Virus record (IMG/VR): IMGVR_UViG_3300042395_000305
Coordinates: 1-34,326 of that record
Length of the DNA stretch: 34,326 bases
Reading direction: 5' to 3' (one strand)
Origin: a virus
Under the pieces are notes generated by a model that saw only the letters and a list, made by a program, of their open reading frames with translations, did no database searches and was not told where the DNA came from. Below are positions 1 to 32,254 of this stretch, in pieces. Each line of letters opens with the position of its first letter. The stretch's first letter is position 1. The position numbers and the translations under genes were made by a program.

Positions 1-107
1 CGACGATCGGGGACCGGAGCCGGACGCCGTCGCGGAGCGAGGAGCCACGAGACGAACGCGGCATGCTCCTCGCGGGTCTCGTCGGGGAATCGGTCCCAGG
101 GGTTCAC
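1..107 (-). CDS. Partial minus-strand gene, possibly a small terminase or HTH protein
   Basis: The reverse strand opens with GTG at 107 and stays open for 35 codons to the window edge, so only the N-terminus is visible. It begins V-N-P-W-D-R-F-P-D-E-T-R-E-E-H-A-A-F-V-S-W-L and turns Arg/Pro-rich after residue 24. The pattern Pro-Trp-(Asp/Glu)-Arg-x-Pro-x-Glu-Thr followed by an Ala-Phe helix resembles the start of phage small terminase-like or helix-turn-helix proteins. This is recalled similarity over about 20 residues, so the function is tentative. No Shine-Dalgarno is visible. A TAGGAT box lies 6 bases upstream of the GTG, so the mRNA is probably leaderless. It is the only convincing gene on this strand and is divergent from the next one. 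Confidence 0.55.
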   Translation of the reverse strand, partial: MNPWDRFPDETREEHAAFVSWLLAPRRRPAPVPDR

Positions 108-113
108 CCCGAG

Positions 114-142
114 ATCCTAGCACGGACTGGGGTCCGAAAAAA
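114..142 (-). promoter_or_regulatory. Leftward leaderless promoter
   Basis: On the minus strand TAGGAT (119-114) lies exactly 6 bases before the GTG start at 107, the same geometry as other units here. A T-run (142-137) sits 17 bases further upstream in the -35 position but is not a good TTGACA match. It lies back to back with the rightward promoter at 148-176. Confidence 0.5.
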
Positions 143-147
143 CTTGC

Positions 148-176
148 TTGACTTTTGCAATGTCGGACGTTACATT
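148..176 (+). promoter_or_regulatory. Sigma70-like promoter of a leaderless gene
   Basis: TTGACT (148-153), a 17-base spacer and TACATT (171-176) are followed by AGGGAC and then ATG at 183. Transcription starting about 7 bases after the -10 box would begin at or next to the ATG. There is no Shine-Dalgarno. A near copy of the whole 38-base block occurs at 15105-15142. Confidence 0.8.
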
Positions 177-182
177 AGGGAC

Positions 183-419
183 ATGAAAAACGACGTCGCC
201 ACGGCCATCCGAACCAGCGCAACGAAGGGCGAGAACTTCGCCTTCTATCCTTCGACCACGAAGGAATTCAATCGCCTAACGAAGGCACTCGGCCGCCGCG
301 CCGATGAGTCCTTCGAGATCTCGGGGGAGGGCTTCCGCGGCCCCGAATCCCGGGGTTTCGTGGACTTTTTCGGGGAATCTCCTGACGGCGTCTGGGGGGT
401 CTCCGTGATCCGCCCCTAG
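183..419 (+). CDS. Hypothetical 78-aa protein, leaderless
   Basis: I do not recognise this protein. The start ATG at 183 is chosen because a promoter -10 box ends 6 bases before it; the earlier in-frame ATG at 63 lies upstream of the promoter and over the divergent gene. The N-terminal half has alternating basic and polar residues with a possible helix (residues 25-40, K-E-F-N-R-L-T-K-A-L-G-R-R). The C-terminus is Phe/Gly-rich and probably beta (F-V-D-F-F-G-E-S). No signal peptide, membrane segment or cysteine is visible. It forms a one-gene transcription unit closed by the terminator at 443-474. Its promoter closely matches that of the gene at 15140, so the two may be co-regulated. Confidence 0.7.
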   Translation: MKNDVATAIRTSATKGENFAFYPSTTKEFNRLTKALGRRADESFEISGEGFRGPESRGFVDFFGESPDGVWGVSVIRP

Positions 420-442
420 AGGGGCGGGCCCCCGGGCCGGGG

Positions 443-474
443 AGGACCTCGCTTTTGCGGGGTCCTTTTCTTTT
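443..474 (+). terminator. Rho-independent terminator
   Basis: AGGACCTCGC (443-452), a TTTT loop (453-456) and GCGGGGTCCT (457-466) form a 10-bp stem with one G-U pair. The T-rich tract TTTCTTTT (467-474) follows. It lies 24 bases after the stop of the 78-aa gene and is the clearest intrinsic terminator in the window. Confidence 0.88.
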
Positions 475-498
475 GTGGCACGGGACTTGCCTCCCATC

Positions 499-534
499 GT
501 ACCGTAATCCTGTCCGGATCCGCCGCTACGGTAC
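499..534. repeat. Inverted repeat in the control region
   Basis: GTACCGTA (499-506) and TACGGTAC (527-534) are perfect inverted copies separated by 20 bases. The spacer contains CGGATCCG. Arm length and spacing fit a protein-binding site better than a terminator, since no T-tract follows. Confidence 0.55.
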
Positions 535-701: not shown

Positions 702-851
702 TAGACTTTCCTTCGAGTTTTCAGATCTGCAAACTCCTACTGACTTTCGGTCATTATCAATAGTCTAGTCCGAGAATACACGCGTAATTCCGGACTGATC
801 ACGGACCCCATAATTATCCTAGCAAGATCCGGGGTAATTGTTACCGCGGAC

Positions 852-887
852 GTTACAGTGTAACTATTGACCGATCATGTATGGTCA
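852..887. promoter_or_regulatory. Pair of adjacent operator-like dyads
   Basis: GTTAC-AGT-GTAAC (852-864) is a perfect 5-bp dyad. TGACC-N3-CATG-N3-GGTCA (868-887) follows three bases later. A related TGAC-N5-GTCA occurs at 741-753. The 11-mer CGGACGTTACA at the left of the first dyad also occurs at 164-174, overlapping the first rightward promoter, which hints at a shared regulator. Confidence 0.45.
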
Positions 888-3353: not shown

Positions 3354-4507
3354 ATCAGGGCCCTCGTTGCACGTGCCGCGGAAAGATCTCCGCCTCCGCC
3401 CTCGAGACGGCCCGCGGGTGCCTTCGTAAGTGGGCGTGGACGGCGATCGCAGGACTCCCGCGGACGTCGACCCCCGCGGCCGAAGAAGGGACCCGGATCC
3501 ACGCCGTACTCGAAGAGTACCTCACGACCGGCCGCACCGATCTGCACTCCCGGGAAGGGCGGATCCTGACGCCCGCCCTCGCGTATCTCCCGCGCTACGG
3601 GGAAGCCTCGCCCGAAGTACATTGGACGACCCTGGACGGACAGTTTCACGGGTTCATCGACGCGGAGGCCCCCGGCCGTCTCTGGGATCTCAAGACCACG
3701 GGGAACCTCCTGTACGCGAAGACCCCCGAGACCCTTCGGACGGACGTCCAGGCCCTACTCTACGCCCATTCGCACCTCGAGCGCCACGACGTCCCCGAGG
3801 TCCGCGCGACGTGGGTCTACACACGGAGGACCCCTGAGCGGCCCAGCGCACTCCCCGTTGACACGACGTTCCGCCGTGACGATGTTGCGGCGGCTGTCGA
3901 GTCGATCCGCACTGACGCGGAACGGCTCGTTCAGCTCCGACGGGACAAGACGGATCCGATGGGACTCGCGCCGAACCCCGAGGAATGCAGTCGTTACGGT
4001 GGATGTCCCTATCAGGACCACTGTACCGATCTCACACCAGAACGAAGAAGGATGGCATTTATGGGAATCCAAGACCAATTGCAGAAACTTCGCGGCGTGA
4101 ACCCTCCGGCCCCCGCGGCCGCGAACCTGACGATCCCCCCGGGACAGGGCCCCGAGGGGTTCGTCTGGATCCCGAAGGCCGATGGCTCCGGCTGGGGGAT
4201 CCAACCCCAGGGCGCACTTCCGGAGGCCCCGGCGGGGCACCTTTGGGAGCACAAAACGGATCCCGGGACGGGGCCCTACGTGATCGCCGTTCCGCTTCCG
4301 CCCCCCGCACCGCCGCCGGCCGATGAGGCCCCCGCGGCGAAGCGCGGACCCGGCCGCCCGCGGAAGGTCACCGCCACCGAAGGGGCCGCGCCGGCGACGG
4401 GGACATCGGACGGGCCGTCCACGGCGGACGGTTGGGAACTCGTGTTCAACGGTCTCCGCATGGTGATCGACGGGGCGGAGATTCTCGTGGTTCGGGTGAC
4501 GTCGTGA
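3350..4507 (+). CDS. PD-(D/E)XK nuclease with Fe-S cysteines and an AT-hook
   Basis: This 385-aa protein resembles the RecB/Cas4-type nuclease family used in phage DNA processing. Core motifs are E-G-T-R-I-H (46-51), G-F-I-D (101-104) and W-D-L-K-T-T (112-117), giving His51, Asp104, Asp113 and Lys115 as likely active-site residues. One N-terminal cysteine (C24 in R-G-C-L-R-K-W) and three C-terminal cysteines spaced C-x5-C-x5-C (213, 219, 225) match the 4Fe-4S arrangement of Cas4/AddB proteins. After residue 250 there is a Pro/Ala-rich tail carrying an AT-hook-like K-R-G-P-G-R-P-R-K (331-339), which would bind the DNA minor groove. The ATG overlaps the upstream stop by 4 bases. Confidence 0.85.
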   Translation: MNQGPRCTCRGKISASALETARGCLRKWAWTAIAGLPRTSTPAAEEGTRIHAVLEEYLTTGRTDLHSREGRILTPALAYLPRYGEASPEVHWTTLDGQFHGFIDAEAPGRLWDLKTTGNLLYAKTPETLRTDVQALLYAHSHLERHDVPEVRATWVYTRRTPERPSALPVDTTFRRDDVAAAVESIRTDAERLVQLRRDKTDPMGLAPNPEECSRYGGCPYQDHCTDLTPERRRMAFMGIQDQLQKLRGVNPPAPAAANLTIPPGQGPEGFVWIPKADGSGWGIQPQGALPEAPAGHLWEHKTDPGTGPYVIAVPLPPPAPPPADEAPAAKRGPGRPRKVTATEGAAPATGTSDGPSTADGWELVFNGLRMVIDGAEILVVRVTS

Positions 4508-4716
4508 CCGGGCCTCGCGATCGGGCCCTCGGACGCGCCGCGACGGTCCTCCGCGCGGAGCTCGGACTCCCCGCCCGGGGGCGTCTGCCGAAGCGCTCGA
4601 AATGGTCTTACGTCGCAAAAGAGGCGTACGAGGAAGCTCTTTGGAAGATCCACGACGGCAAGCGCCCGGCGATCGCCGCACTCAAGAAGATCCTTCGAGC
4701 CGAGGGTGTCCTGTGA
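4504..4716 (+). CDS. Hypothetical 70-aa basic protein
   Basis: I do not recognise this protein. GTG at 4504 overlaps the upstream stop (GTGA), the usual junction in this operon, so it is preferred to the longer in-frame ORF beginning inside the nuclease gene. The product is rich in Arg, Lys and Ala, with a predicted helical second half (K-E-A-Y-E-E-A-L-W-K-I-H). A small basic helical protein between a nuclease and a helicase could bind nucleic acid, but that is inference only. Confidence 0.65.
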   Translation: MTGPRDRALGRAATVLRAELGLPARGRLPKRSKWSYVAKEAYEEALWKIHDGKRPAIAALKKILRAEGVL

Positions 4717-6673: not shown

Positions 6674-6686
6674 AAAGAAGGATGTC

Positions 6687-7274
6687 ATGGGAATGTTCAG
6701 TGAGTTCGCCAACGTCAAGCCTTCCGAAAAAGGGACCTACCTCATGGTCCCGGGCCTCTACCGTCTCGAGGTCGTCCGCTGCAAGTGGCGTGAAGACCCC
6801 CGCGCCGGTAGCGCGTTCATCGCCTCGCTTCTGGTGCTCGAGTCGCCGGACGAGGTGACCCACCCCCTGGGGTCAACGGTGGACTACTACCAAGGGGTGT
6901 CGAGGGCCCCCTACCCCGAGAGCGCACGATCGGACATCGTGGCCTTCTTGGCCGCGACGGGACTCCCGATCGACGGCGCGGCCGCGGCCTCGAGTCTCGA
7001 GCTTGCCGTTGGCGCGCAGAATCCGCTAGCCGGCCGAAAGGTCCGCGTCCAGGCGACGTCGCACGCGACGAAGAAAGACCCCGCGAAGACGTACCTTCGT
7101 CTCCGCTGGTATTCCGATGACGCGGCCCCCGCCGCCGTGCCGGTCGCGGTCCCCGCGCCGGTCGCGGCCCCGGTCGCGGTCCCCCCGGGCTATCATCGGT
7201 TCGCCGACGGGAAGATCCGACCGATCCCCGAGGGCTTCCGCGTTGCCCTCGACGGTTCGCTGATTCCAGTGTGA
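6687..7274 (+). CDS. Probable ssDNA-binding or replication accessory protein
   Basis: This 195-aa protein begins at an ATG preceded by a purine-rich Shine-Dalgarno (GAAGGA, 6677-6682). It has a compact N-terminal domain of about 145 residues in which beta-type segments alternate with basic residues (for example G-L-Y-R-L-E-V-V-R-C-K-W near 23-34). A tail of V-P-V-A-V-P-A-P-V repeats follows. Its position beside helicase and polymerase genes and its OB-like look resemble phage DUF669 or SSB-type proteins, but no decisive motif is visible. The tail DNA carries repeated CCGGTCGCGG units (about 7139-7180). Its stop overlaps the methyltransferase GTG. Confidence 0.55.
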   Translation: MGMFSEFANVKPSEKGTYLMVPGLYRLEVVRCKWREDPRAGSAFIASLLVLESPDEVTHPLGSTVDYYQGVSRAPYPESARSDIVAFLAATGLPIDGAAAASSLELAVGAQNPLAGRKVRVQATSHATKKDPAKTYLRLRWYSDDAAPAAVPVAVPAPVAAPVAVPPGYHRFADGKIRPIPEGFRVALDGSLIPV

Positions 7275-8134
7275 GAACTCTCGATCTCTTCGCCGGCGCC
7301 GGCGGTGGACTGTACGGGGGTGCGATCCTCGGATGGTCCTCCGCTTGCGCCGTCGAGATCGACCCGTATTGTCGGAAGGTCCTCCGTGCGAAGTTCCCCG
7401 AGGTTGAGATCCACGACGACGTGCGCACCTTCGACGGGCGGCCGTGGCGTGGACGCGTCGACGTCATCACCGGAGGGTTCCCCTGTCAGGATGTCTCTCT
7501 CGCAGGTAGAGGCGGAGGACTCGACGGCGCAAGATCGGGGTTGTGGCGCGAGTTCGCACGCATCATCGGCGAAGCTGAACCGGCGTTCGCGCTCATTGAG
7601 AACTCCCCCGCCCTCCGCGGACGGGGTCTCGATCGAGTCCTTCGGGACCTTGCCGCTCTCGGGTTCGATGCGGAATGGACTTGTCTCTCCGCGTCCGCCG
7701 TTGGCGCTCCGCACCGACGGAATCGAATCTGGATCCTTGCTGCCCACCCCGACCGCCTCGACGTACGGCACGCGCAACAACGGCAAGAGGGGCGACGGCT
7801 CGACGTTTCGCACGGCGGGCGCTCCGTCGCTCTCGACCATGGCGAGGCGGGACATGTGGCCCACCCCGACGGTCAAGGGGAACTACAACCGAGCGGGCCT
7901 CACGGAGCGGAGCGGCAACGGCCTCGCGACGGAGGTATGGATCCAGACTGGGACCCGTGGGCCGCTGAACCCGACTTGGATCGAGTGGCTCATGGGATGG
8001 CCCATGGGGGCGACCGACTGCGCGCCCTTGGAAACGGCCAGGTTCCGCTCGTGGCTGCTACAGCAGCGTGCGGCCTTGCTGCGCGTTTTGGGCTCGATTG
8101 GAGGCCCGTCTATGCTTCTCTTCCTCGACTGTGA
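7271..8134 (+). CDS. DNA cytosine-C5 methyltransferase
   Basis: This 287-aa enzyme transfers a methyl group from S-adenosylmethionine to cytosine C5. All core motifs are present in order: motif I L-D-L-F-A-G-A-G-G (4-12), motif IV G-G-F-P-C-Q-D-V-S with the catalytic Cys, motif VI I-E-N-S, motif VIII G-A-P-H-R-R-N-R, and a C-terminal motif IX/X R-L-R-A-L-G-N-G-Q-V-P. The target-recognition part is short. ENS replaces the more common ENV, as in other phage enzymes. The GTG start overlaps the upstream stop by 4 bases. The last 23 bases overlap the polymerase gene, and most of the gene is overlain by an open, protein-like second frame (see findings). Confidence 0.92.
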   Translation: MRTLDLFAGAGGGLYGGAILGWSSACAVEIDPYCRKVLRAKFPEVEIHDDVRTFDGRPWRGRVDVITGGFPCQDVSLAGRGGGLDGARSGLWREFARIIGEAEPAFALIENSPALRGRGLDRVLRDLAALGFDAEWTCLSASAVGAPHRRNRIWILAAHPDRLDVRHAQQRQEGRRLDVSHGGRSVALDHGEAGHVAHPDGQGELQPSGPHGAERQRPRDGGMDPDWDPWAAEPDLDRVAHGMAHGGDRLRALGNGQVPLVAATAACGLAARFGLDWRPVYASLPRL

Positions 8135-10080: not shown

Positions 10081-10532
10081 TCGATCTCGTGACGATCGAC
10101 CCCGGAGCGAAGACCGGGATCGCAGAATGGTCCGTGGTCTGGACGGCCTCCGCGTACGATCCCCCCGTCGGTGCGCTAGTCGCCGTCGGGACCGTCGCGA
10201 TCGAGACCTCCGATTGGGTACCCCCGCGCCGCGCCCGAAGGGTCGTCTGGGAGCGCCCTGTCCTTCGAACGGCGGGGCGCGTCCGGGCGACGCCGGATGA
10301 TCTCGTGACCCTGGCGTACCGTGCGGGCCTCGCCGTCGCGCTGTACCGGACCGCGGGGACATCCGTGGACGCGGTGACCCCGGCGCAGTGGAAGGGCTCC
10401 GTGCCCAAGGCGATCCACCATCGCCGGATCCTCGGGGCCCTCACGGCGACGGAACGGACGATCGCCGGGGACTGCGGCCCCGATGCGCTCGACGCGATCG
10501 GGATCGGCTTGCGATTGCTCGGCCGTCTCTGA
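10077..10532 (+). CDS. RuvC-like Holliday-junction resolvase
   Basis: This 151-aa protein has an RNase H fold signature: I-D-P-G-A-K-T-G (7-14) supplies the first catalytic Asp8, V-W-E-R-P (57-61) the Glu59, and G-P-D-A-L-D-A-I (134-141) the last two acidic residues Asp136 and Asp139. The order D...E...DxxD is that of RuvC-type resolvases, which cut four-way junctions before packaging. The GTG start overlaps the upstream stop. An alternative start at 9903 would add 58 residues of low-complexity Arg/Pro sequence ahead of a fold that normally begins right at this strand, so the short form is preferred. It is the last gene of the replication operon. Confidence 0.82.
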   Translation: MIDLVTIDPGAKTGIAEWSVVWTASAYDPPVGALVAVGTVAIETSDWVPPRRARRVVWERPVLRTAGRVRATPDDLVTLAYRAGLAVALYRTAGTSVDAVTPAQWKGSVPKAIHHRRILGALTATERTIAGDCGPDALDAIGIGLRLLGRL

Positions 10533-10543
10533 TTAGCTACCCT
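10515..10543 (+). promoter_or_regulatory. Promoter of the fibre gene unit
   Basis: TTGCTC (10515-10520), a 17-base spacer and TACCCT (10538-10543) lie 8 bases before the ATG at 10552. There is no Shine-Dalgarno. The -35 box lies within the end of the resolvase gene. Confidence 0.65.
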
Positions 10544-10551: not shown

Positions 10552-12000
10552 ATGCAGATCGCACAGCCCGGCGGAGCCGGAACGGCACCGGTCAACGGCA
10601 CCCTCGAGGAAGCGTGGGCCTCCGTCCCCGTCGTTCTCACGGCGCCGGCCGCGGACTCGTACCTATGGACGATGTTGGACGCGACGGACGGAAGTCCCCC
10701 GGCACTGACTACGCCAACGGCGCAAGTCTCGGGGTTCACCCCGACGGTCGGCCGCCGGGCGTACCGCGTCCGTCTGACGTCGGTGACCTCGGGTGTCACG
10801 ACGATCACGACCCGCGTGGTTCACGTCTCGCGGACGGCGACCGGTGTCGAGATCCCAGGAGTCGACCGGATCGCGTACCAAGAGCGATCCGACGAGCGCG
10901 GCCTAGCTCGCGGCCTCGGCGCGGTATGGGATCGCAACTGGGCTAAGATCGATGCGTCCTTCGCGCTCAGTGACGGGACGCTCGACACCGAAGGGGCCGT
11001 CACCGTCGGCGCAACGAACGCCACGAGCGTTTCCGTCGGTCGTGCGGCAGCCCCGACGACGGTCGCGGGGGGCGCCACGACGATCGGGACCCCGACCCTC
11101 ACGATCGCGGACGCGGTCGGCGGGAACTCGGTCGCGGTCTGCACCGTAGGAGCGGCCGCGCGCGTCCGAGTGCAGGACTTCTGCACGAGTTTCGCCCTCG
11201 ACTGGCAAGCGAGCGCCGTGGGAATCGGAGCAGATACGACCATCGCATCCCAAGCGGGCGCTTCGGGCTCGCGTAACGGAGCGCTCAGGTTGCGCGCGCC
11301 GGCGGGGAATACGGCCCTCGGCGGGGGCGTGATCGTGGATCCGGGGTCCACCGTCTCGAACGTCGGGGATCCCCTCGCGTTGGAGTACAACGGCACGCGC
11401 GTATGGCAAGTCCGGCAGAACTCCGCCGGCGGAGTCCTTATGCAATGCCAGAATTTCGGGGATACGATCGTCATGGGGGGCCCTAACGGGGCCTCCGCTA
11501 ATTCGGTGAGCATCATTCCTAACGCAGCACTTACGGTGACTGCGACCGCGGGTTATCTGCTCCTCTCGACGTCGGGGGCCGTCCCGCTCTACGTTCAGCA
11601 ACCGAACGGGATCTCCATCTTCTCGGGGTCCGCGACGGTCGCTTTCAAGGACGTGAACGCGCGAGCGACGATCACCTCCGCGACCACGACCACGGTCCTA
11701 TCGTGGACGGCGGATACTAACCGCGTCTACACGGTGGAAGGGATCTTCACGCTCGCGAACGACACGGACAACCAGGGCGCCTGCTACAGGTTCCTCGCCG
11801 CCTTTAAGAACGTGGCCGGGACGGTGACGCAGATCGGCACCACGATCCTGACCGTGATCGGCGAAGACGCTGGACAGACGGGCTTGGACGTCGTGATCGA
11901 CTTCAGCGGAACCGCGATTCGGTTCCGCGTCGTGACGAACTCCACTGATACTGTGGTCGCGGAACTCGTGGCAAACATCTTTCAGGCGGTGCTGACGTGA
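10552..12000 (+). CDS. Fibre-like virion protein
   Basis: This 482-aa protein has an Ig/PKD-like N-terminal region (about 20-95, with alternating Thr/Val strands and Y-L-W-T) and then a linker W-D-R-N-W-A-K-I-D near 126-134. A long stretch rich in Gly, Ala, Thr, Ser and Val follows, including T-T-V-A-G-G-A-T-T-I-G-T-P-T, as in beta-helical tail fibres or spikes. The last ~100 residues form a more compact domain (W-T-A-D-T-N-R-V-Y-T-V-E-G). There is no signal peptide and no catalytic motif. A role in receptor binding or as a decoration fibre is inferred from composition. Unusually, it lies between replication and modification genes rather than after the baseplate. Confidence 0.65.
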   Translation: MQIAQPGGAGTAPVNGTLEEAWASVPVVLTAPAADSYLWTMLDATDGSPPALTTPTAQVSGFTPTVGRRAYRVRLTSVTSGVTTITTRVVHVSRTATGVEIPGVDRIAYQERSDERGLARGLGAVWDRNWAKIDASFALSDGTLDTEGAVTVGATNATSVSVGRAAAPTTVAGGATTIGTPTLTIADAVGGNSVAVCTVGAAARVRVQDFCTSFALDWQASAVGIGADTTIASQAGASGSRNGALRLRAPAGNTALGGGVIVDPGSTVSNVGDPLALEYNGTRVWQVRQNSAGGVLMQCQNFGDTIVMGGPNGASANSVSIIPNAALTVTATAGYLLLSTSGAVPLYVQQPNGISIFSGSATVAFKDVNARATITSATTTTVLSWTADTNRVYTVEGIFTLANDTDNQGACYRFLAAFKNVAGTVTQIGTTILTVIGEDAGQTGLDVVIDFSGTAIRFRVVTNSTDTVVAELVANIFQAVLT

Positions 12001-12922: not shown

Positions 12923-13245
12923 CCCTTCGCGACGGCCTCTCGCCGTGGGGCGAACTCTGGGGCGGGCCCTTGGGACGGCGCACGGCGTCCAGTGCGTCCC
13001 TCGGACGCCGCGGCCCTCTGACGATCGCCGTTGCGGGAGTCGCCTCGTGGCGCCTTGAGGTTGCCTACGGTCCGGGGGCCTTCGTGGTCGCCGCGACGGA
13101 CGCGGGCCCCGTTGCGCCCTTCTCGGGGGCCGTCGGCCTCGCGGGCGGGACACTGTCCCCGCCCCCCGGAGGATGGCCAACGGGCGTCGTCCGTTTCCGT
13201 CTCTCGGGGTTCGACTCGTCGGGGGCCGAAGTCCTCGAGGCTTGA
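12919..13245 (+). CDS. Hypothetical 108-aa Gly-rich beta protein
   Basis: The GTG overlaps the previous stop by 4 bases. The product is rich in Gly, Ala, Pro and Val, with alternating patterns such as W-R-L-E-V-A-Y-G-P-G-A-F-V-V-A-A suggesting a small beta domain. There are no cysteines, signal or membrane helix. It is the last gene of the fibre unit, and a new promoter begins at its stop codon. A structural accessory role is possible but not shown. Confidence 0.58.
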   Translation: MTLRDGLSPWGELWGGPLGRRTASSASLGRRGPLTIAVAGVASWRLEVAYGPGAFVVAATDAGPVAPFSGAVGLAGGTLSPPPGGWPTGVVRFRLSGFDSSGAEVLEA

Positions 13246-13269
13246 CCGGATCGGCGGACGCCTTAGGTT
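13242..13269 (+). promoter_or_regulatory. Leaderless promoter
   Basis: TTGACC (13242-13247), a 16-base spacer and TAGGTT (13264-13269) are followed by CCGGCG and ATG at 13276. The 6-base gap after the -10 box and the lack of a Shine-Dalgarno imply a leaderless mRNA. The -35 box overlaps the upstream stop codon. Confidence 0.78.
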
Positions 13270-15104: not shown

Positions 15105-15133
15105 TTGACTCTTGAAACGTCTGGCATTACATT
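15105..15133 (+). promoter_or_regulatory. Leaderless promoter, near copy of the one at 148-176
   Basis: TTGACT (15105-15110), a 17-base spacer and TACATT (15128-15133) are followed by AGTCAC and ATG at 15140. Boxes, spacer length and distance to the ATG are identical to the promoter at 148-176. Spacer positions TTG, AA and GTC are also conserved. Confidence 0.82.
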
Positions 15134-15139: not shown

Positions 15140-15388
15140 ATGGAACTCACCACAGATCAAAAGTGCATGCTCGACCGGATCAGGGCCGCGGGTACCGCTG
15201 GTTTAGTTGGGGTTACGCGTGTAAGCGCAGCGAGCCTCGTCCGAAAGGGACTCGTTAAGATGGAAGTTGTAGAGAAGAACGTCCGCGCCGACAAGTTATT
15301 CAACGCCGCCGACGGGCGCAGTCTGGTCTACACGATCCAAGGGCGCTTCCGCTTTTATACTGTCGTCCGCTACACTATCGCATCATGA
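15140..15388 (+). CDS. Small winged-helix-like protein, leaderless
   Basis: This 82-aa product has an N-terminal helical region (T-T-D-Q-K-C-M-L-D-R-I-R-A-A-G) followed by A-A-S-L-V-R-K-G-L-V (30-39) and then beta-type segments (V-Y-T-I-Q-G-R-F). This is the order seen in small winged-helix DNA-binding proteins, where a Leu-Val-x-Lys-Gly-Leu helix end precedes the wing. It is therefore a candidate transcription factor, with moderate uncertainty. The gene is less GC-rich than its neighbours (codons such as TTA, GTA, ACA). Its stop overlaps the ATG of the Mom-like gene, so both are probably expressed together from the promoter at 15105. Confidence 0.65.
   Translation: MELTTDQKCMLDRIRAAGTAGLVGVTRVSAASLVRKGLVKMEVVEKNVRADKLFNAADGRSLVYTIQGRFRFYTVVRYTIAS
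15371..15376 (+). promoter_or_regulatory. Possible internal -10 box before the Mom-like gene
   Basis: TACACT ends 8 bases before the ATG at 15385, the geometry of other leaderless starts here. No good -35 box is visible, and the site is inside the upstream coding region. TATACT at 15356-15361 is an alternative -10 box. Confidence 0.35.
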
Positions 15389-15942
15389 ACTGGGGTCTCT
15401 CGCTGGATCGGTCGCATTACCTCGGGGCCAAGGGGGCGCGGGCCCGCTTGGTGTTCGAGGCCCCCGGCTGTACAATGACTTTCTCCGGCCCGTCGTCACG
15501 TCGGCTTCCCGCGGACTGGTTCGAGCTTTCCCGATGGTGCATCACCAGCGGCGTTGGATCTCAGCATTGGGCCTCCGCCGTCGAATGGCTCCGCTCGAAC
15601 GCGCCAACGTGCACGACGGTAGTGAGCTACTCCGATCCGTCCGTCGGTCACGATGGCGCCCTGTATCGGGCCTGCAATTGGTGGTGGGCACCGACGTGGC
15701 ACGTGCTACGGCCCCCTCCCACGGGCGCGGGGACCCGCGGAGGGAAGCGCCAAGCGGCGAAACACCGATGGGTGTACCTACTGCGTCCAGACGATCGGCG
15801 CGGTGCGCTCCTAGCATTGCGCGACGCGACGCTAGCCCGACGCTACCCGTGGGCAGGGTACCAAGAGCCTACATGGCGGAGAGGCGTACCCGTGAGGTCA
15901 CGCGCCGACGCTTTCCGGATGTTCCGCGGGGTTAATCCGTGA
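15385..15942 (+). CDS. Mom-like DNA hypermodification protein (GNAT-type fold)
   Basis: This 185-aa protein resembles phage Mom-type proteins. In phage Mu, Mom converts adenine to N6-methylcarbamoyl-adenine and protects DNA from restriction. The diagnostic region is W-F-E-L-S-R-W-C (45-52), then V-V-S-Y-S-D-P-S-V-G-H-D-G-A-L-Y-R-A (79-96) ending in C-N-W-W-W, followed by a Pro-rich L-R-P-P-P-T-G segment and a basic K-R-Q-A-A-K-H-R-W-V-Y-L patch. Similarity is recognised by motif, not by alignment. It lies immediately before the terminase gene, about 730 bases after the Dam-type gene. In Mu, mom expression depends on Dam methylation of nearby GATC sites, which makes the pairing notable. Confidence 0.7.
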   Translation: MNWGLSLDRSHYLGAKGARARLVFEAPGCTMTFSGPSSRRLPADWFELSRWCITSGVGSQHWASAVEWLRSNAPTCTTVVSYSDPSVGHDGALYRACNWWWAPTWHVLRPPPTGAGTRGGKRQAAKHRWVYLLRPDDRRGALLALRDATLARRYPWAGYQEPTWRRGVPVRSRADAFRMFRGVNP

Positions 15943-18720: not shown

Positions 18721-19451
18721 CCGAGCGTCGCGTCGCGGGCCTCCCGCGCCTGTTGCGGGTCTATCGTGCCTTGGTCGCTTCATGGCCCTGGCAGGATCTC
18801 GCCGATGCGTACGAATCACGGGCGGACGCCTCGGAATGGATCCGCGCGAAGGTCGCCGCGTTCCGGGCGCAAGTCGAGACCTCCGTCACCTCTCGGGGTC
18901 TCGTGACGGAGATCGATCGATCGGCCGTCGCGACCGAGCAAGGGGCCGCGTTCGACGTCGGTCGCGCCCTTCGGGAATTGGGCCTCCCGAGGCTCCCGAC
19001 GGTGGACCTTTCGGATCTCGTGACGCGGCGGAGGGTCGCGGCGTTCCGTCGGGAGAACCTGAAACTCATTCGAACCCTCGCACGGTCCGAGGTCGCCTCA
19101 CTGCGGGATCTCCTCGTGGACGCGGAGCGCCGCGGCGCGCGCGTCGAGACGGTCCGCCGTGAGATCCAGGATCGCCTCGGGGTCGCACGAAGGCACGCCG
19201 ATCTCTTGGCCCGTGATCAGACTCTCAAGCTCTCGGGGCAAGTCACGAAGGCCCGACAGACGCAGTCGGGGATCCGACGCTACAAGTGGTCCACGTCGCG
19301 GGACGAGCGCGTCCGCCCTCGACACGCGGAGCTCGACGGACAGATCTTCGAGTGGTCCGGGGACGGTCCGATCACGGACGCGAAGGGCAACAGGCACCAT
19401 CCGGGCGGCGACTTTCAGTGTCGCTGCGTCGCGATCCCCGTACTAGACTAG
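18717..19451 (+). CDS. Mu F-like minor head protein
   Basis: This 244-aa protein has the C-terminal signature of the phage Mu gpF/SPP1 gp7 head morphogenesis family. It has a basic helical region followed by R-Y-K-W-S-T-S-R-D-E-R-V-R-P-R-H (208-223), then H-P-G-G-D-F-Q-C-R-C (about 229-238) near the end. The N-terminus is helical. It probably binds the portal and helps head assembly or DNA ejection. GTG overlaps the portal stop by 4 bases. Only 4 bases separate its stop from the next ATG, and they fall within a -10-like box. Confidence 0.88.
   Translation: MTERRVAGLPRLLRVYRALVASWPWQDLADAYESRADASEWIRAKVAAFRAQVETSVTSRGLVTEIDRSAVATEQGAAFDVGRALRELGLPRLPTVDLSDLVTRRRVAAFRRENLKLIRTLARSEVASLRDLLVDAERRGARVETVRREIQDRLGVARRHADLLARDQTLKLSGQVTKARQTQSGIRRYKWSTSRDERVRPRHAELDGQIFEWSGDGPITDAKGNRHHPGGDFQCRCVAIPVLD
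19444..19449 (+). promoter_or_regulatory. Candidate leaderless -10 box before the head protease gene
   Basis: TAGACT ends exactly 6 bases before the ATG at 19456 and overlaps the stop codon of the upstream gene. No convincing -35 hexamer lies 16-18 bases upstream. AGGG is too close to the ATG for a normal Shine-Dalgarno. Confidence 0.45.
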
Positions 19452-19455: not shown

Positions 19456-20586
19456 ATGGAAGAGATCACGAGGGTCGATCGCCTCGAGCGCACCGACCAG
19501 TGGACTACGACGACGGGCGGGGGCGTCCGCCTCGAGGCGCGATCGACTCGTACGGGGGTCCTCGTCTATCGCCTCGCGGACGGCACGGAGCGCCGCGAAT
19601 ATCGCCCCCCGGAGGAAGTCCACGCGCCGGAGTCTCTCGCGACGTGGGCGGACGTCCCCGTCACCGTGGCGCACCCCGAGGACGGATCCTTGGTCACCGC
19701 GTCGACGTGGTCCGCCGAGGCCGTCGGTCATGTCTCCGGGGCAGGCGCAGTGGACCCCGAGGATCCGCGGTTCGTCCGCGTCGCAGTGGTCGTCTCGGAC
19801 GCGGACGCCGTCGGCGGGGTCCTCGCGAAGGAGATCGGCCGCGAGGTCTCGGCGGGATACCTCGCGGACTACGATCCGACCCCCGGGACGACCCCCGAGG
19901 GTGAGCCGTACGACGGGATCCAGCGGAGAATCCGCTACAATCATCTTGCCCTGTTGCGTGCGGGACAGGGCCGCGCGGGGCCCGACGTGCGGATCTTGCT
20001 CGACGCCGCGGATCCTGCCACGATCCCAGACATGACCATGATCAAGATCGACGGCCTCGAAGTCGTCCAGGGATCCGCCGAGCACGTCCGCGCGCTCGAA
20101 GCTCGCGCGGAACGTGAACGCCAGCGCGCGGATTCCCTCGAGGCGAACGCGAAGCGTGACGCGCACGTCCGCGCCTCGATGATCGCCACGCTGCGTACGA
20201 TGACCGGCGATCCGCGGCGTCTCGACGCGGCGGACCCCGCGGCCGCGGCGACGTCCACCGAGGACGTCATGGCCTCGATCCTCAAGATGGCGGCCCCTGA
20301 GTTCGACACCGCCGGCAAGAGCTCGGACTACCTCCTCGGGGCCGTCGCGATGCTCGTCGCGACGGGCGGCGCGAAGGCCCCCTCGCCTCCGGCCCCCGCG
20401 GCGGACGCGAAACCGCCCGCACCGACGCCGGACCCCGCGCGAAGCCCGTCTCAGGCGGACGTCGCGCGAGACTCGATCGAGGCACTTCGCCACGGTCCCG
20501 CACCTCGGACGGACTCCGAGGACGATCCGATCGCGGCCGCTCTTGCTGAGCGCAAGGCCCGCGCGAACAAGAAAGGGGGCGCGTGA
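19456..20586 (+). CDS. Prohead protease with scaffold region (DUF2213 family)
   Basis: This 376-aa protein is a head maturation protease fused to a scaffold-like tail. The protease domain spans about residues 1-185, with P-V-T-V-A-H-P-E (68-75), R-E-V-S-A-G-Y (129-135) and Y-N-H-L-A (161-165). His73, Ser132 and His163 are the likely catalytic triad. After residue 205 comes a charged coiled coil (E-A-R-A-E-R-E-R-Q-R-A), then a Pro/Ala-rich linker (340s) and a basic end. In-frame ATG codons at 20032 and 20038, at the domain border, could start a separate scaffold product, but neither has a visible ribosome site. The stop overlaps the next GTG. Confidence 0.87.
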   Translation: MEEITRVDRLERTDQWTTTTGGGVRLEARSTRTGVLVYRLADGTERREYRPPEEVHAPESLATWADVPVTVAHPEDGSLVTASTWSAEAVGHVSGAGAVDPEDPRFVRVAVVVSDADAVGGVLAKEIGREVSAGYLADYDPTPGTTPEGEPYDGIQRRIRYNHLALLRAGQGRAGPDVRILLDAADPATIPDMTMIKIDGLEVVQGSAEHVRALEARAERERQRADSLEANAKRDAHVRASMIATLRTMTGDPRRLDAADPAAAATSTEDVMASILKMAAPEFDTAGKSSDYLLGAVAMLVATGGAKAPSPPAPAADAKPPAPTPDPARSPSQADVARDSIEALRHGPAPRTDSEDDPIAAALAERKARANKKGGA

Positions 20587-22085: not shown

Positions 22086-22118
22086 GAAGGCCTCGCGGAT
22101 CGCCTCCGCGGGGCCTTC
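22086..22118 (+). terminator. Strong hairpin after the major capsid gene
   Basis: GAAGGCCTCGCGGA (22086-22099) and TCCGCGGGGCCTTC (22105-22118) form a 14-bp stem with one G-U pair and a 5-base loop. No T-tract follows; the next promoter's -10 box begins 5 bases later. It may be a partial terminator or an RNA-stabilising 3' end for capsid mRNA. Confidence 0.7.
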
Positions 22119-22122
22119 GTGC

Positions 22123-22128
22123 TACGGT
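22123..22128 (+). promoter_or_regulatory. Candidate leaderless -10 box for the neck/tail unit
   Basis: TACGGT ends 6 bases before ATG 22135. There is no Shine-Dalgarno. The -35 position falls inside the hairpin and shows no good match, so activity is less certain. Confidence 0.5.
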
Positions 22129-22134: not shown

Positions 22135-22449
22135 ATGACTACCGACACGAAGAAGGCCGTTTACGCCGTGAACACCTCCGCTCGACTGATCTATATCGAG
22201 GGCTTCCGCATCCCCCCGCTGGCGCACGTCGAGATCAAGACGTTCACGCCGGCCCTCGCGAAGAAGTGCGAGGGTACGGGGATCGAGTTCGGCGCGGACC
22301 CCGCGGCGATCTTGGCACGCGCGAAGCGCGGCCTCTCCGACGACGATCGCGCGGCGCTCGAATCCGGCGAAGTGAAACTCTTGCCCGCCGGGGTCTCCGC
22401 GGCGATGACCTCGACTCCGCCGGCTCCCGTGGACCTCGTGCCCCGATGA
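22135..22449 (+). CDS. Hypothetical 104-aa head-neck region protein
   Basis: ATG at 22135 is chosen because of the -10 box 6 bases upstream and because an earlier in-frame start at 22006 would overlap the capsid gene. The N-terminal half is beta-like (A-V-Y-A-V-N-T-S-A-R-L-I-Y-I-E-G) and the rest is helical with a Pro-rich end. I do not recognise the family. Small proteins in this slot between capsid and DUF4054 genes are often head or neck accessories. The stop overlaps the next ATG. Confidence 0.65.
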   Translation: MTTDTKKAVYAVNTSARLIYIEGFRIPPLAHVEIKTFTPALAKKCEGTGIEFGADPAAILARAKRGLSDDDRAALESGEVKLLPAGVSAAMTSTPPAPVDLVPR

Positions 22450-23164: not shown

Positions 23165-23694
23165 CGGCGTCCCCGCTCTCACGGTTCGTCTCCGCCCTCG
23201 GGGCCCTCGTGGACGTCCCCGTCTATCGCGACGGGACTCCGCGGACCTTCGGGACGCCGTCCGCGTGGATCGAGGTCTCCCTGTTGGCCTCCGCGCCGAT
23301 CGCGGTACGCCCAGCGGTGCGCTACGTCGAGCTCCCCGAGGACGAAGCGGCCCACGGTGACCCGCCGGGCCTCTCACCGGACCTCGAGGAACGCGTCACG
23401 GAGGCCGTGGAACTCTCCGCGCGGGTCCGTTGCCTCTCCCCGACGGTGTCCGACGTCCCGCTGATCCTGCTCGCGGAGCTCTCCGCGCGCCTAGGCTCGC
23501 CGATGGGGTCCGAGGTCCTCGAGGCGAACGGCCTAGGACTCCGAAGGGTCCTCGCGGGGCCGTCCGCCCTCCCGTGGAATTTCGACGGCCGAGATCGTTC
23601 CGTGGCCTTCCTCGACGTCGGGCTACACGCTACGATGTCCCTCGTTACTCGAACCGTGGACCCGATCGATCGTGTCTACCTCCGGAGAACCTGA
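23161..23694 (+). CDS. Probable tail terminator (neck) protein
   Basis: This 177-aa protein occupies the slot between the neck protein and the sheath, where contractile-tail phages encode the tail terminator (LIC_12616-like family). It has an amphipathic N-terminus, a central acidic loop (E-L-P-E-D-E-A-A-H-G-D-P-P), and a C-terminal region with W-N-F-D-G-R-D-R-S-V-A-F-L-D-V-G-L-H-A-T, similar to the final strands of this family. GTG overlaps the upstream stop. Assignment rests mainly on order and size. Confidence 0.68.
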   Translation: MTASPLSRFVSALGALVDVPVYRDGTPRTFGTPSAWIEVSLLASAPIAVRPAVRYVELPEDEAAHGDPPGLSPDLEERVTEAVELSARVRCLSPTVSDVPLILLAELSARLGSPMGSEVLEANGLGLRRVLAGPSALPWNFDGRDRSVAFLDVGLHATMSLVTRTVDPIDRVYLRRT

Positions 23695-23697
23695 ACC

Positions 23698-25092: not shown

Positions 25093-25499
25093 CCACCGCG
25101 AAAACGTACGACCTACGACAGTCGACTTTTTTCTTCGGGGGCCTGTGCACCGAAGCGGGCAAGGGCGGCTTCGTCACGATCACACCGGCCGGTGAGAGGA
25201 TCACGAAGGACGTCGACGTCAAGGGGGGCGTCGTGGTGCACAGCAACGCCCCCGCGAATCAGCGGAGCTACCGGATCGAACTGACCCTGATGCAAGGGGC
25301 CCTGTTCTCCGTGATCCTCTCCGCGATCGCGAAGGTCCCCGGGGTCGTTCAGCTCCCGTGTTCGGTGATCACCCCAACGGAGAAATTCGTCGGACGGGCG
25401 ACGCTCGCGCTCGAGCCGACCCGGACCGCGACCGCCGAGACCACCGATCGCGTGTGGACCTTCGAAGCGGTCGGTGAGATTCAGGACACCGCGCTATGA
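25089..25499 (+). CDS. Tail tube protein (DUF3277-like)
   Basis: This 136-aa protein directly follows the sheath gene, the normal order for sheath-tube pairs. It is beta-rich with few helices (V-V-V-H-S-N-A-P-A-N-Q-R-S-Y-R-I-E-L-T-L, residues about 47-66), a size typical for contractile tail tubes, and a C-terminal W-T-F-E-A-V-G-E-I that fits the last strand. It should polymerise into the inner tube through which DNA passes. The ATG overlaps the sheath stop by 4 bases. Confidence 0.82.
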   Translation: MTTAKTYDLRQSTFFFGGLCTEAGKGGFVTITPAGERITKDVDVKGGVVVHSNAPANQRSYRIELTLMQGALFSVILSAIAKVPGVVQLPCSVITPTEKFVGRATLALEPTRTATAETTDRVWTFEAVGEIQDTAL

Positions 25500-25849
25500 G
25501 GACGACGGCAACGGCGACGCTACCCGGTGGGGCGAGCGTCCGAATGAAGCAACTGGGCGCGCGCGACGCGGCCGATCTCTTTCGTCGGCTCGTCTCCGCG
25601 AACGCCCCCGCGGGGGCCGGCGGGGGCGTCGCCCTCGGGGCGCTCCCCGAAGAGACGTTCCTGAAGATCTTCGATCTCGCGGTCGCGGCATCGGAGGTCG
25701 AACTCGTCGCGAAGACCGACGAAGGGGCCCCCGTCGCGTCCGCGTGGCGTCCACTGACACAGGGCGACCTCGTGAGCTTCAAGGACTCCGCGGCCCTCAT
25801 GGAGCTCCTGATCCGGATCAACGTCCTGGATTTTCTCGCCGGGGAGTAG
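25496..25849 (+). CDS. Tail assembly chaperone, short form
   Basis: This 117-aa protein lies between the tube and tape-measure genes, the place of lambda G-like chaperones. It has a beta N-terminus (T-A-T-L-P-G-G-A-S-V-R-M), a Gly/Ala-rich bend (A-G-A-G-G-G-V-A-L-G) and a helical C-terminus (A-A-L-M-E-L-L-I-R-I-N-V-L-D-F-L). It ends at TAG 25847-25849, just after a T-run where a -1 shift could continue translation into the next frame. The ATG overlaps the tube stop by 4 bases. Confidence 0.8.
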   Translation: MRTTATATLPGGASVRMKQLGARDAADLFRRLVSANAPAGAGGGVALGALPEETFLKIFDLAVAASEVELVAKTDEGAPVASAWRPLTQGDLVSFKDSAALMELLIRINVLDFLAGE

Positions 25850-26052
25850 AGATCGTCCATCGCGCCGCGCACCTTCCGACGCCGAAGGGCGCGTCCCGGA
25901 TCTCTCTCCCCGAGGCGATCGACTGGTGGATCTGGCGTCCGGTCTGGGACCGCCGCGCGACACTGACGGAGGTCGAGAGAGACTGGTCCCTCTCGGACGT
26001 GCTAGACTACGCAGAGATCGCCCTCGCATTCGACCGTCATGGCCCTTCGTGA
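25831..26052 (+). CDS. Tail chaperone extension, probably made by -1 frameshift
   Basis: This conserved-looking segment of about 72 residues (I-D-W-W-I-W-R-P-V-W-D-R-R, then V-E-R-D-W-S-L-S-D-V-L-D) lies in the -1 frame relative to the chaperone gene and resembles the tail-chaperone partner (DUF6889-type) of myoviruses. There is no ATG, GTG or TTG in this frame between 25780 and the conserved part. The most likely expression route is a -1 slip on TTT within GAT-TTT-CTC (T-run 25831-25834), where tRNA-Phe can re-pair perfectly. That would give a fusion of about 185 aa. A non-canonical ATC start at 25852 after GGGGAG is the alternative. It overlaps the tape measure start. Confidence 0.72.
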   Translation, partial: FSRRGVEIVHRAAHLPTPKGASRISLPEAIDWWIWRPVWDRRATLTEVERDWSLSDVLDYAEIALAFDRHGPS

Positions 26053-29467: not shown

Positions 29468-29468
29468 C

Positions 29469-30098
29469 ATGGCCACGGACTTCGCCGACGTCATCGAGCG
29501 CGCGATCGAGTCCCGGATCCGGGACATATTCACGGCCTCCGTCGGTGAGGTCGTGAGCTACGACCCCGCGGCGCGAAAGGCGGACGTCCGCCCCGGCGTC
29601 ACGCGCTGGTCGCCTCGCGAGGACGGGACGATCGATCGTGACCTCGAGGTCCCGATTCTCCCGGCGGTCCCCGTCCTCTTGCTGAGGACGCAAGGGGCGC
29701 GGATCGTTGTCGACATCGAACCGGGCACGAAGGGCCTTCTGTTGTTCTTCGACGTGCCGATCCATGGGTGGATGCAGTCCGGCGACGTCACCGGATCCGA
29801 GGATCTAAGGATGCACCATCCGACCAGCGCGGTGTTCATCCCGGGCCTCTATCCGGACACGGAAAGCCTGGACGTCGCGACGGAACCGGACACGATGATC
29901 CTTGACGCCGATACGATCAAGCTCGGCGCGACGGCGTCGTTTCATGTCGCGATCGCGGAGGCCGTCCGCGGGGAGCTCGACAAGATCGCCGCGGCCCTCA
30001 ACAGTGCCAACGCCCCGAACGGCGGGGGTCCGGTGACCTACGGGTCCGCGTACGTCCCCGCGGACGTGAACTCGACAAGGGTGAAGGTGGTCCCATGA
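29469..30098 (+). CDS. Baseplate spike protein (Gp138/gpV-like)
   Basis: This 209-aa protein shows the N-terminal OB-like domain of membrane-piercing spikes: V-V-S-Y-D-P-A-A-R-K-A-D-V-R-P (29-43), I-P-x-V-P-V type L-P-A-V-P-V-L-L-L-R (61-70), and E-P-G-T-K-G-L-L-L-F-F (79-89). A beta-helical part follows with short repeats (T-M-I-L-D-A-D-T-I-K-L-G), ending in a small tail. It is expected to be the trimeric needle. ATG at 29469 starts one base after the hub stop, and its end overlaps the next gene by 4. Confidence 0.84.
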   Translation: MATDFADVIERAIESRIRDIFTASVGEVVSYDPAARKADVRPGVTRWSPREDGTIDRDLEVPILPAVPVLLLRTQGARIVVDIEPGTKGLLLFFDVPIHGWMQSGDVTGSEDLRMHHPTSAVFIPGLYPDTESLDVATEPDTMILDADTIKLGATASFHVAIAEAVRGELDKIAAALNSANAPNGGGPVTYGSAYVPADVNSTRVKVVP

Positions 30099-30538
30099 CG
30101 ATCGAATGGAGCTACACGATCGAACCGCCGAGCTCGATCGCGGACGCGTCCGGCGTCGCCGATGTCGATCTACTGCCGATCAAGGATCTGGCATTGGCCC
30201 CCGATGGCGATCTCGAGGTCCCCCCGAGGATCATCGGCGGAGTCGAGGCGATCGCGCAACGTCTTCGGATCCGCCTCTCACGATGGCGCGGGGAGAACTT
30301 CCTCGATCTCGACGACGGGATCCCCTACGCGGAGCGCATCGTCGGGCGACGCGGGTCCGCGGCCGTCGCACGTGCGATCCTCCGTCGCGTGATCCTCGAG
30401 ACGCCCGGCGTCCGTGAGATCCTCGAGTTCTCCGCGGCGCTCGTCGGGCGCGAACTTCGCGTCACCTTCCGCGTGTCGACGCGCGGCGGACCGGACATCG
30501 TGGTACGCTCGGGGTTCAACGCGGAGGCCGTCACGTGA
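30095..30538 (+). CDS. Baseplate wedge protein (gp25/gpW-like)
   Basis: This 147-aa protein has the gp25-type core: G-V-E-A-I-A-Q-R-L-R-I-R-L (49-61) followed by W-R-G-E-N-F-L-D-L-D-D-G-I-P-Y (64-78), then I-L-R-R-V-I-L-E-T-P-G-V (95-106). The W-x-G-E-x-x-x-D-x-x-x-G-(I/V)-P-Y motif and E-T-P-G-V turn are characteristic. It joins wedges to the sheath base. Order spike, gp25-like, gpJ-like is standard for contractile baseplates. Confidence 0.88.
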   Translation: MTIEWSYTIEPPSSIADASGVADVDLLPIKDLALAPDGDLEVPPRIIGGVEAIAQRLRIRLSRWRGENFLDLDDGIPYAERIVGRRGSAAVARAILRRVILETPGVREILEFSAALVGRELRVTFRVSTRGGPDIVVRSGFNAEAVT

Positions 30539-31686
30539 CGTACATCGATCCTACCGGGCTGCAGATCCCGACACTCGAAGAGATCCGCGACGCGATCGGC
30601 GCGGAGCAACGCGCGGCGATCGATCCGCTCCTCGCGAACGACACCGATAGCGTTCTCGGGACGATGAACGCGATCGTCGCGTCCCATGCAAGGGAGGCAT
30701 GGGAGACCCTACAGGACGCCGCTTGGGAGAACGATCCTCGAGACGCCGAAGGGGCGGGCCTCGAACGGATCTCACGGATCACGGGGACCCTTCGCCGCGC
30801 GGCGACGCGATCGACGGTCACCGTCGACTGTACCCTTGCGGGCGGGACGTCCCTCGCGGCCCTGTCGTCTCAGGTCCGCGTGACCGGATCGGACCCGGCG
30901 GTCCTCTTTCGTCTCGTCTCGTCGTTCACCGCGCCCGTCGGTCCTTCGGCGACGTACCCGCTGATCTTCGAGGCCGTCGCCGAAGGGCCTGTCCCGGCGA
31001 ACCCTACGACGCTCACGACGATCGCGACCCCGACGGCCGGATGGTCCGCGGCGTCGAACCCCGGCGCCGCGACACTGGGCCGGGCGGAGGCGACGGACGA
31101 AGAACTCCGACAACTGCGGTTGGCCGACCTGTTTCGGCCCGCGGCCGTGATCCCGAAAGCGACGGAACAGCGGTTTCTCGAGGTCCCCGGGGTCCTCTCC
31201 GTGCGATTCCGGGAGAACCTCCTAGACGTCAAGGACCCCGCGACGGGCCTCCCGGGCCGGACGTGGCAGATCATCTATTGGGACGGCCCGGGGGCGAGCG
31301 CGGACCCTGACGATCTCGCCGCGGCGCTCGTGGACTCGCGCCAAGGTGGCATCGCCGGAGGGGCGATCCGCGCCCTGGAGGTCCCCTTCGAGGTCGAGAT
31401 CTTCGGATGGTCCGCCGCGGGGTACTCCGCCGCGGCCCTCAAAGCGGCGATCCTCGCCGATGTCCAGGCGACGCAGCGGCCCGGGCGGGACGTCTATTAT
31501 TCCCGGTTCGCGGCGATCTGCGCGGCGAACGGGGTCCCCGAGATCCAAGAGATCCGCCTCCGGAAGACCCTCTCACCGGCCGCCCCGTGGGCCGTGGCGA
31601 ATATTCCGATCGACGCGGTATCGGTCGCGACGTTGCTGGACGCGACGATCACATTGAACGTGATCGCCGGCCCGGCCCCGGTGTGA
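30535..31686 (+). CDS. Baseplate wedge protein (gpJ/gp6-like)
   Basis: This 383-aa protein matches baseplate J-like proteins: N-terminal helical region with T-Y-I-D-P-T-G-L-Q-I-P-T-L-E-E-I (2-17), a middle beta region with A-G-W-S-A-A-S-N-P-G-A-A-T-L-G-R-A-E-A-T-D-E-E-L split across about 163-186, and a C-terminal region of repeated alpha/beta units. The N-P-x-x-x-x-G-R-x-x-E-(T/S)-D-x-E-L-R motif is diagnostic. GTG overlaps the upstream stop. No fibre gene follows immediately; a new leaderless start begins 13 bases later. Confidence 0.9.
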   Translation: MTYIDPTGLQIPTLEEIRDAIGAEQRAAIDPLLANDTDSVLGTMNAIVASHAREAWETLQDAAWENDPRDAEGAGLERISRITGTLRRAATRSTVTVDCTLAGGTSLAALSSQVRVTGSDPAVLFRLVSSFTAPVGPSATYPLIFEAVAEGPVPANPTTLTTIATPTAGWSAASNPGAATLGRAEATDEELRQLRLADLFRPAAVIPKATEQRFLEVPGVLSVRFRENLLDVKDPATGLPGRTWQIIYWDGPGASADPDDLAAALVDSRQGGIAGGAIRALEVPFEVEIFGWSAAGYSAAALKAAILADVQATQRPGRDVYYSRFAAICAANGVPEIQEIRLRKTLSPAAPWAVANIPIDAVSVATLLDATITLNVIAGPAPV

Positions 31687-31692
31687 TACCCT
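31687..31692 (+). promoter_or_regulatory. Candidate leaderless -10 box of the lysis-region unit
   Basis: TACCCT ends 7 bases before ATG 31700 and overlaps the preceding stop codon region. No Shine-Dalgarno is seen, and no good -35 hexamer is at the expected distance. Confidence 0.45.
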
Positions 31693-31699
31693 CGGGGCC

Positions 31700-32254
31700 A
31701 TGGTTTCCGATCTCACTCTCGCGATCCTGGTCGCCGTCGCCCTCGGGAACGTCGCGATCCTCATCCTTCGACGGCTCGGGTACGAGCGCGCGGCGGACGT
31801 CCTCGGGAAGATCCTCCCGCTCGCACTCACCGCGTCCAGTGCGTCCTCGTGGCGCGAGGCCGTCCAGCGGCTCGCCCTCTCCGTTCTGGAGCTCCCCGAG
31901 AAGGAAGCCCGGGAGGAAGCCTCGAGGGCCCTCAAGAGTGCGACGGCGAAACCGTCCGTGCCCCCGGGCCCGACGTTGCCGCTGCTCCTCGTCCTCGGAC
32001 TCTCGGGGTGCGCCGGCGCGGCCGGTCTCTCGAGGGGCCTCGAGGACGTCCGCGACGGCCTGGACGCCGCGCGACCGGCGATCCTTCAACTGGAGTCCGC
32101 GGTAAAGGAGTGCTCCCGATCCTTGCCCCCGGCGGAGGGCGCGGCCGTCCGCGAACGGCTCGAGGCTACGATGGTCCTCTTGGACCTCGCGTGGGCGAAA
32201 GTCGGCGCACTGCTCTGTCTCGTCGTAGAGGACAAGACGGGGTGCGACCGATGA
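31700..32254 (+). CDS. Membrane protein with an internal lipoprotein signal, lysis candidate
   Basis: This 184-aa ORF begins with an apolar N-terminal helix (7-23, L-A-I-L-V-A-V-A-L-G-N-V-A-I-L-I-L) and a charged helical stretch to about residue 85. A second apolar segment L-P-L-L-L-V-L-G-L-S-G-C follows at 93-104, with a perfect lipobox L-S-G-C (101-104). The remaining part is helical and ends in another apolar patch (about 158-175). An in-frame GTG at 31958 (residue 87) could start a separate 98-aa lipoprotein resembling an outer-membrane spanin, while the full product resembles a holin or inner-membrane spanin subunit. No family is recognised with confidence. The stop overlaps the next ATG. 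Confidence 0.65.
   Translation: MVSDLTLAILVAVALGNVAILILRRLGYERAADVLGKILPLALTASSASSWREAVQRLALSVLELPEKEAREEASRALKSATAKPSVPPGPTLPLLLVLGLSGCAGAAGLSRGLEDVRDGLDAARPAILQLESAVKECSRSLPPAEGAAVRERLEATMVLLDLAWAKVGALLCLVVEDKTGCDR

Follow-up and report, generated by a model that had tools for sequence, protein, structure and literature searches.

Leaderless expression from a TANNNT hexamer 6-7 bp ahead of the start codon has been tested experimentally in Deinococcus radiodurans (PMC12340547), and leaderless starts have been mapped in Mycobacterium tuberculosis (PMC3898074). A survey found leaderless genes to be plentiful in Deinococcus-Thermus (39%), Aquificae (26%), Actinobacteria (19%), deltaproteobacteria (16%) and Acidobacteria (13%) (PMC3160421). 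Leaderless phage transcription is experimentally documented in only few phages, among them the Thermus phage phiYS40, most of whose middle and late mRNAs are leaderless (PMC3594737). In P23-45, another Thermus phage, the protein gp39 inhibits -10/-35 promoters, whereas extended -10 promoters of middle and late genes are less affected (PMC7403470). Here we describe TANNNT boxes directly ahead of gene starts in a 34,326-base stretch of viral DNA (the window; IMG/VR record IMGVR_UViG_3300042395_000305). With a probability of about 0.85, we read them as -10 elements for a host sigma factor that would give leaderless mRNAs, with one operator-controlled and one extended -10 class.

The window belongs to an uncultured, contractile-tailed phage (W in comparisons). 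The same virus is present in two further records at 99.9% identity, one of which adds 7.3 kb rightward (the extension). Two relatives served for comparison: R3 (IMGVR 3300013133_000059), collinear with the right half of the window at 66-69% DNA identity, and R4 (3300015263_001819), a distant relative whose TerL is 32% identical.

Each of the nine boxes of the original prediction was found at its distance from the start, and the four -35 boxes with spacers of 16-17 nucleotides (nt) were correct. On the minus strand, the extended -10 TGC TAGGAT (114..122) lies 6 nt before GTG 107 of a leftward gene that leaves the window, divergently from the 183 promoter. The remaining boxes are on the plus strand. 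The 183 promoter consists of TTGACT (148..153) and TACATT (171..176), 6 nt before ATG 183; an in-frame ATG at 63 competes with this start. The -35-like TTGCTC (10515..10520) and TACCCT (10538..10543), 8 nt before ATG 10552, precede a 482-amino-acid gene of no family, and TTGACC (13242..13247) with TAGGTT (13264..13269), 6 nt before ATG 13276, a 60-amino-acid gene. TTGACT (15105..15110) and TACATT (15128..15133) stand before an 82-amino-acid gene (ATG 15140, 6 nt), and a -10-like TACACT (15371..15376), located within that gene (15140-15388), lies 8 nt before ATG 15385 of a Mom-like gene. The last three are TAGACT (19444..19449), 6 nt before ATG 19456 of the head maturation protease, the extended -10 TGC TACGGT (22120..22128), 6 nt before ATG 22135, and TGA TACCCT (31684..31692), 7 nt before ATG 31700, in which the stop codon of a baseplate-wedge gene is fused to the box. 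A scan for sigma-70 and terminator consensus sequences picked up the 15105 promoter alone, with terminators at chance level; such scans therefore miss this promoter class.

A box at 6-8 nt was found before 10 of 48 gene starts and before 1 of 365 internal in-frame ATG/GTG codons (Fisher p = 1.8e-9); this comparison had been named with the original prediction as one that could overturn it. On the plus strand there are 9 instances of TANNNT with an ATG 6-8 nt after it. Dinucleotide shuffles average 1.6 (maximum 5 of 100), other distances predict 2.8, and the minus strand has a single case. As in known leaderless TANNNT genes, the first T is ~12 bp upstream of the start, and the hexamer is enriched there over background. 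Since the choice of starts can be biased, starts were also chosen by their distance from the upstream gene, blind to the box, with a gap of at least 1 counted as non-overlapping and TANNNT scored at 5-9 nt. In the window and extension, 8/14 non-overlapping but only 1/28 overlapping starts were boxed, and in R3 4/11 and 0/18, respectively (pooled 12/25 vs 1/46, p = 4e-6). The sole boxed overlapping start in the window and extension is 15385; with this exception, which the original prediction had also made, boxed starts are at unit borders without upstream overlap. TANNNT at 6-8 nt before starts is thus confirmed as a real signal for the set as a whole. The supposed lack of a Shine-Dalgarno (SD) sequence holds on average, the anti-SD duplex being weaker at boxed starts (-3.1 vs -6.9 kcal/mol, p = 2e-4), but not for 22135 and 31700, which are G-rich upstream (-6.0 and -5.3 kcal/mol). 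The proposed rule that the third base is always C or G could not be kept: nine of nine has p = 0.10, the rule is uninformative because 77% of all TANNNT in the genome are TAS, and the relatives use TAA and TAT too.

The 183 and 15140 promoters have TTGACT, a 17-nt spacer and TACATT in common, and both contain TTGACTNTTGNAANGTCNGNCNTTACATTAG, which includes the palindrome TGTAAYGTCNGACRTTACA spanning the spacer and the -10 box. Together with copies beyond the window, they constitute class I of the promoters, defined by the TTGACT -35 box and the palindrome. With 0-2 mismatches the palindrome occurs four times in the window and extension, each time in a TTGACT promoter; two of these copies lie beyond the window, and the two within it are TGCAATGTCGGACGTTACA (156..174, plus strand, 1 mismatch) and TGAAACGTCTGGCATTACA (15113..15131, plus strand, 2 mismatches). 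A weaker copy with 3 mismatches is at 839..857 (plus strand) in a non-coding, AT-richer stretch, and a degenerate one (15356-15374) lies under the 15385 promoter. In shuffled sequence there were 0-2 matches even allowing up to 5 mismatches. A repeated palindrome overlapping promoter elements is the feature of operator-controlled early promoters, and we regard it as a putative operator, which should bind a repressor or another regulator. An Xre-type helix-turn-helix reading frame is located near two of the copies beyond the window, and its product is a candidate for the binding protein. R3 has another inverted repeat, CCTTGACNCGGTCAAGG, over the -35 box of three promoters; among the viral contigs searched, only the two further records of the same virus possess the class I promoter family. 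Beyond the window, the class I copy at 39746 lacks an ATG at the corresponding position; its ATG comes after a hairpin leader and an SD, and class I is therefore not necessarily leaderless.

The second class is marked by the bases ahead of the hexamer. At 25 sites in three phages, the bases unused for selection read G T G C/A (the pattern form for boxes 6-7 nt before starts is TGNTANNNT), and TG precedes the hexamer at 15 of these sites vs 5.5% expected (p = 3e-13). TGN directly before the -10 box, the sequence feature of extended -10 promoters, is present in the window at 107 (minus strand), 22135 and 31700. These sites plus 36658 beyond the window make up class II (TGN-TANNNT without a -35 box), which mostly serves virion genes. 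Two boxes are joined to the TGA stop of the gene upstream, and in these TGA-TANNNT cases the TG of the extended -10 is supplied by the stop codon. Directly before the box at 22123, after the major capsid gene, there is a 14-bp hairpin without a T-tract (22086..22118, plus strand; -33 kcal/mol, z -3.5); its R3 counterpart is a 17-bp hairpin (-41 kcal/mol, z -5.5) with changed sequence but preserved stem. This terminator-like hairpin probably halts transcription from the capsid gene immediately ahead of the next transcript. The boxes at 10552, 13276, 15385 and 19456 fit neither class cleanly. The fusion of a stop codon with an extended -10 and the palindromic early promoters both give direct, testable predictions.

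R3 keeps the boxes at the orthologous starts 22135, 31700 and 36658, though the surrounding sequence differs. At 22135, TGCTACGGT in the window corresponds to TGCTAGGAT in R3 (TGC TAGGAT, 6 nt), the box conserved ahead of R3 gene 7087, and the box at 107 (minus strand) is identical to the latter. At 31700, TGATACCCT corresponds to TGATACGCT (TGA TACGCT in R3), an indel shifting the spacing from 7 to 6 nt, and at 36658, TGATACACT to TGATAGGCT. An R3 box at 23615 was not counted, because an in-frame ATG with an SD comes after it and a sister copy lacks a usable start there. In R4, the protease gene orthologous to 19456 has TGCTAACCT at 7 nt, and boxes also stand ahead of the portal, tape measure and baseplate genes. 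When distances were tested uniformly, a peak at 5-8 nt appeared in W (9 vs 2.8 expected), R3 (5 vs 0.2), R4 (12 vs 3.2), phiYS40 (14 vs 7.3) and a Microbacterium phage (4 vs 0.5), and no such peak in Aeromonas phage 56, Manatee Spring phage and the relative G005. As the peak is missing in G005, whose sheath and TerL are homologous (36-38% identical), the architecture does not simply follow virion genes. Its presence in some relatives and absence in others with homologous genes suggests that box placement follows the translation habits of the host.

In the reading that we prefer, the boxes would be recognized by the primary (sigma-A-type) sigma factor of the host, transcription would begin on the A/G of the start codon or at most a base or two away from it, and the unit mRNAs would be leaderless and translated without an SD, while genes inside units are SD-led and overlapping. 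We infer these transcription starts and leaderless translation, as well as the regulation and timing of the units, from sequence. The position of the boxes, the exclusion of overlapping genes, the weak SD, the unselected extended -10 and the conservation all argue for leaderless promoters at unit borders. The "complete leaderless switchboard" of the original prediction is nevertheless too strong, as most genes are SD-led and translationally overlapping and one class I copy drives a leadered gene. Several further observations speak against the reading: the unit-border genes 6687, 23698 and 29469 have an SD and no box; the 15385 box, located in coding sequence, may have arisen by chance; R3, the closest relative, has no exact TANNNT at 19456; the 25-site logo pools three phages and includes sites picked partly by open reading frame (ORF) length; and the intended positive control, P23-45, gave no peak over the first 50 kb of its genome.

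Class II could instead be read by a phage-modified polymerase, through a sigma-remodelling factor like P23-45 gp39 or a phage activator, in an early-to-late switch. We consider this possible, at odds clearly below even. Small non-structural genes have the operator and -35 box, and the virion genes of W, R3 and R4 have extended -10 boxes that lack a -35; gp39 also provides a precedent (PMC7403470). On the other hand, few sites define the classes, with 13276 and 10552 blurring the split, and the part of the proteins that was scanned, which does not include several small ones, gave no recognisable gp39-like, sigma or RNA polymerase gene and no family hit to a factor displacing sigma region 4. The switch is therefore proposed only as a hypothesis. 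The full programme would combine operator-controlled -35/-10 leaderless promoters of small early genes with stop-fused or hairpin-preceded extended -10 leaderless promoters of virion genes, in a leaderless-rich host and switched by a phage factor blocking -35 recognition; we hold this slightly more speculative still.

It is rather unlikely that the boxes are real promoters of which some give RNAs beginning slightly downstream or further upstream of the start, with translation by coupling or from a weak SD. The leadered copy at 39746 and the G-rich sequence upstream of 22135 and 31700 are in favor of this, as is the ATGA overlap at 15385, where the Mom-like gene could be translated by coupling to the 15140 gene. 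However, the spacing is sharply fixed at 6-7 nt in three phages, which would be of consequence only with the start codon at the end of the RNA, and the SD is weak at boxed starts. Chance matches to a loose pattern in nine cases chosen by eye can practically be dismissed: the third-base rule is indeed composition, and random matches would account for about 1.5-3 of the nine, so that individual boxes need not all be real (15385, 13276 and 10552 could still be chance), but the comparison with internal codons, the blind-start test, the independent relatives and the unselected extended -10 refute chance for the set as a whole. Leaderless promoters read by the host sigma factor thus appear to be the best explanation.

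If box placement does follow the host, the signature can be used to fix gene starts, to delimit transcription units and to narrow the hosts of uncultured phages. As a clue to the host, it narrows the field here to leaderless-rich lineages and assigns no single host; in M. tuberculosis, TG-extended boxes are far less frequent (7%) than here. A scan of GTDB genomes with the major capsid protein found no relative. TerL alignment matches of 26-30% to Lactobacillus, Brevundimonas and a spirochaete metagenome-assembled genome were uninformative in this respect. The comparison also covered plasmid stretches of Granulicella, Deinococcus, Streptomyces and Gemmatirosa, whose small size gives them no weight for or against the extended box.

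All recognised genes of the window are on the plus strand. They comprise primase-like, nuclease, helicase, C5 methyltransferase, PolA, Dam-like and Mom-like modification genes, followed by those for TerL, portal, head morphogenesis, protease, major capsid protein, sheath, tape measure and baseplate. No cultured phage has a DNA-level match to the window, and the best protein matches are 34% for TerL (Aeromonas phage 56) and under 30% for sheath and major capsid protein. A leftward gene begins at 107 (minus strand), and another leftward ORF finishes near the far end of the extension, where a low-complexity ORF with GDGYGDG repeats is also located. The genome could be circular, the left end of the window and the right end of the extension being separated by a gap; no overlap of these ends was found. 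Several genes of the extension have a common leader form, a hairpin plus GAAAGGAACACGAACC-ATG, and R3 has a similar set with CGAAAGGAAGCCACCC.

The gene at 183..419 (plus strand; 78 amino acids, function unknown) is predicted to be leaderless and monocistronic, and a hairpin with a T-tract at its 3' side (441..475, plus strand) is a likely intrinsic terminator. The subsequent non-coding, AT-richer stretch 480-1130, with TTACA/TGTAA elements and the palindrome copy at 839, may be a control region or an origin. The start assigned to the primase (1131, TTG) is uncertain. An unlisted GTG-started gene of 70 amino acids (4504-4716) between nuclease and helicase overlaps both and so fills the apparent gap ahead of the helicase start at 4706. 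At 7271-8134 and 7305-8108, the same DNA matches DNA methyltransferases in two frames. A C5 methylase is encoded in frame 7271 (Pfam E 4e-36), and phrog_1008 is matched (E 6e-18) by the +1 frame, which runs into PolA; this suggests an old frameshift or an overprinted origin. The 82-amino-acid gene overlapping (ATGA) the Mom-like gene at 15140-15942 recalls the com-mom arrangement of phage Mu; its product does not resemble the Com zinc finger. A probable tail-assembly-chaperone frameshift lies at 25496-26052: the ORF ending at 26052 is in the -1 frame, has no separate start close to the gene upstream and is also kept in R3 ahead of the tape measure gene; no clear slippery heptamer was found there in the window.

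An Rfam search returned nothing. The hexamer, the 6-7 nt spacing and the SD absence are common to the window phage and the leaderless genes of Deinococcus-Thermus and Actinobacteria (Zheng 2011, PMC3160421; Cortes 2013, PMC3898074; 2025, PMC12340547); TACACT, the commonest variant in D. radiodurans, is present at 15371. Here, in contrast, the boxes are in a phage and at unit borders only, and 60% of them have the TG of the extended -10 vs 7% of TANNNT promoters in M. tuberculosis. As in temperate phages with repressor-operator promoters, a repeated palindrome covers the spacer and -10 of several promoters; unlike there, no integrase was recognised in the genes scanned, and the palindrome-binding protein is only a candidate. 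In the first 50 kb of phiYS40, both the distance peak and the excess of TG recur. However, phiYS40 has 32% GC, is not among the best protein hits listed, with no close kinship seen, and its evidence is experimental whereas ours is computational. P23-45 provides the likeness of an extended -10 class for middle and late genes, set against a -10/-35 class. Overall, the promoter system proposed for the window phage resembles those of the Thermus phages phiYS40 and P23-45.

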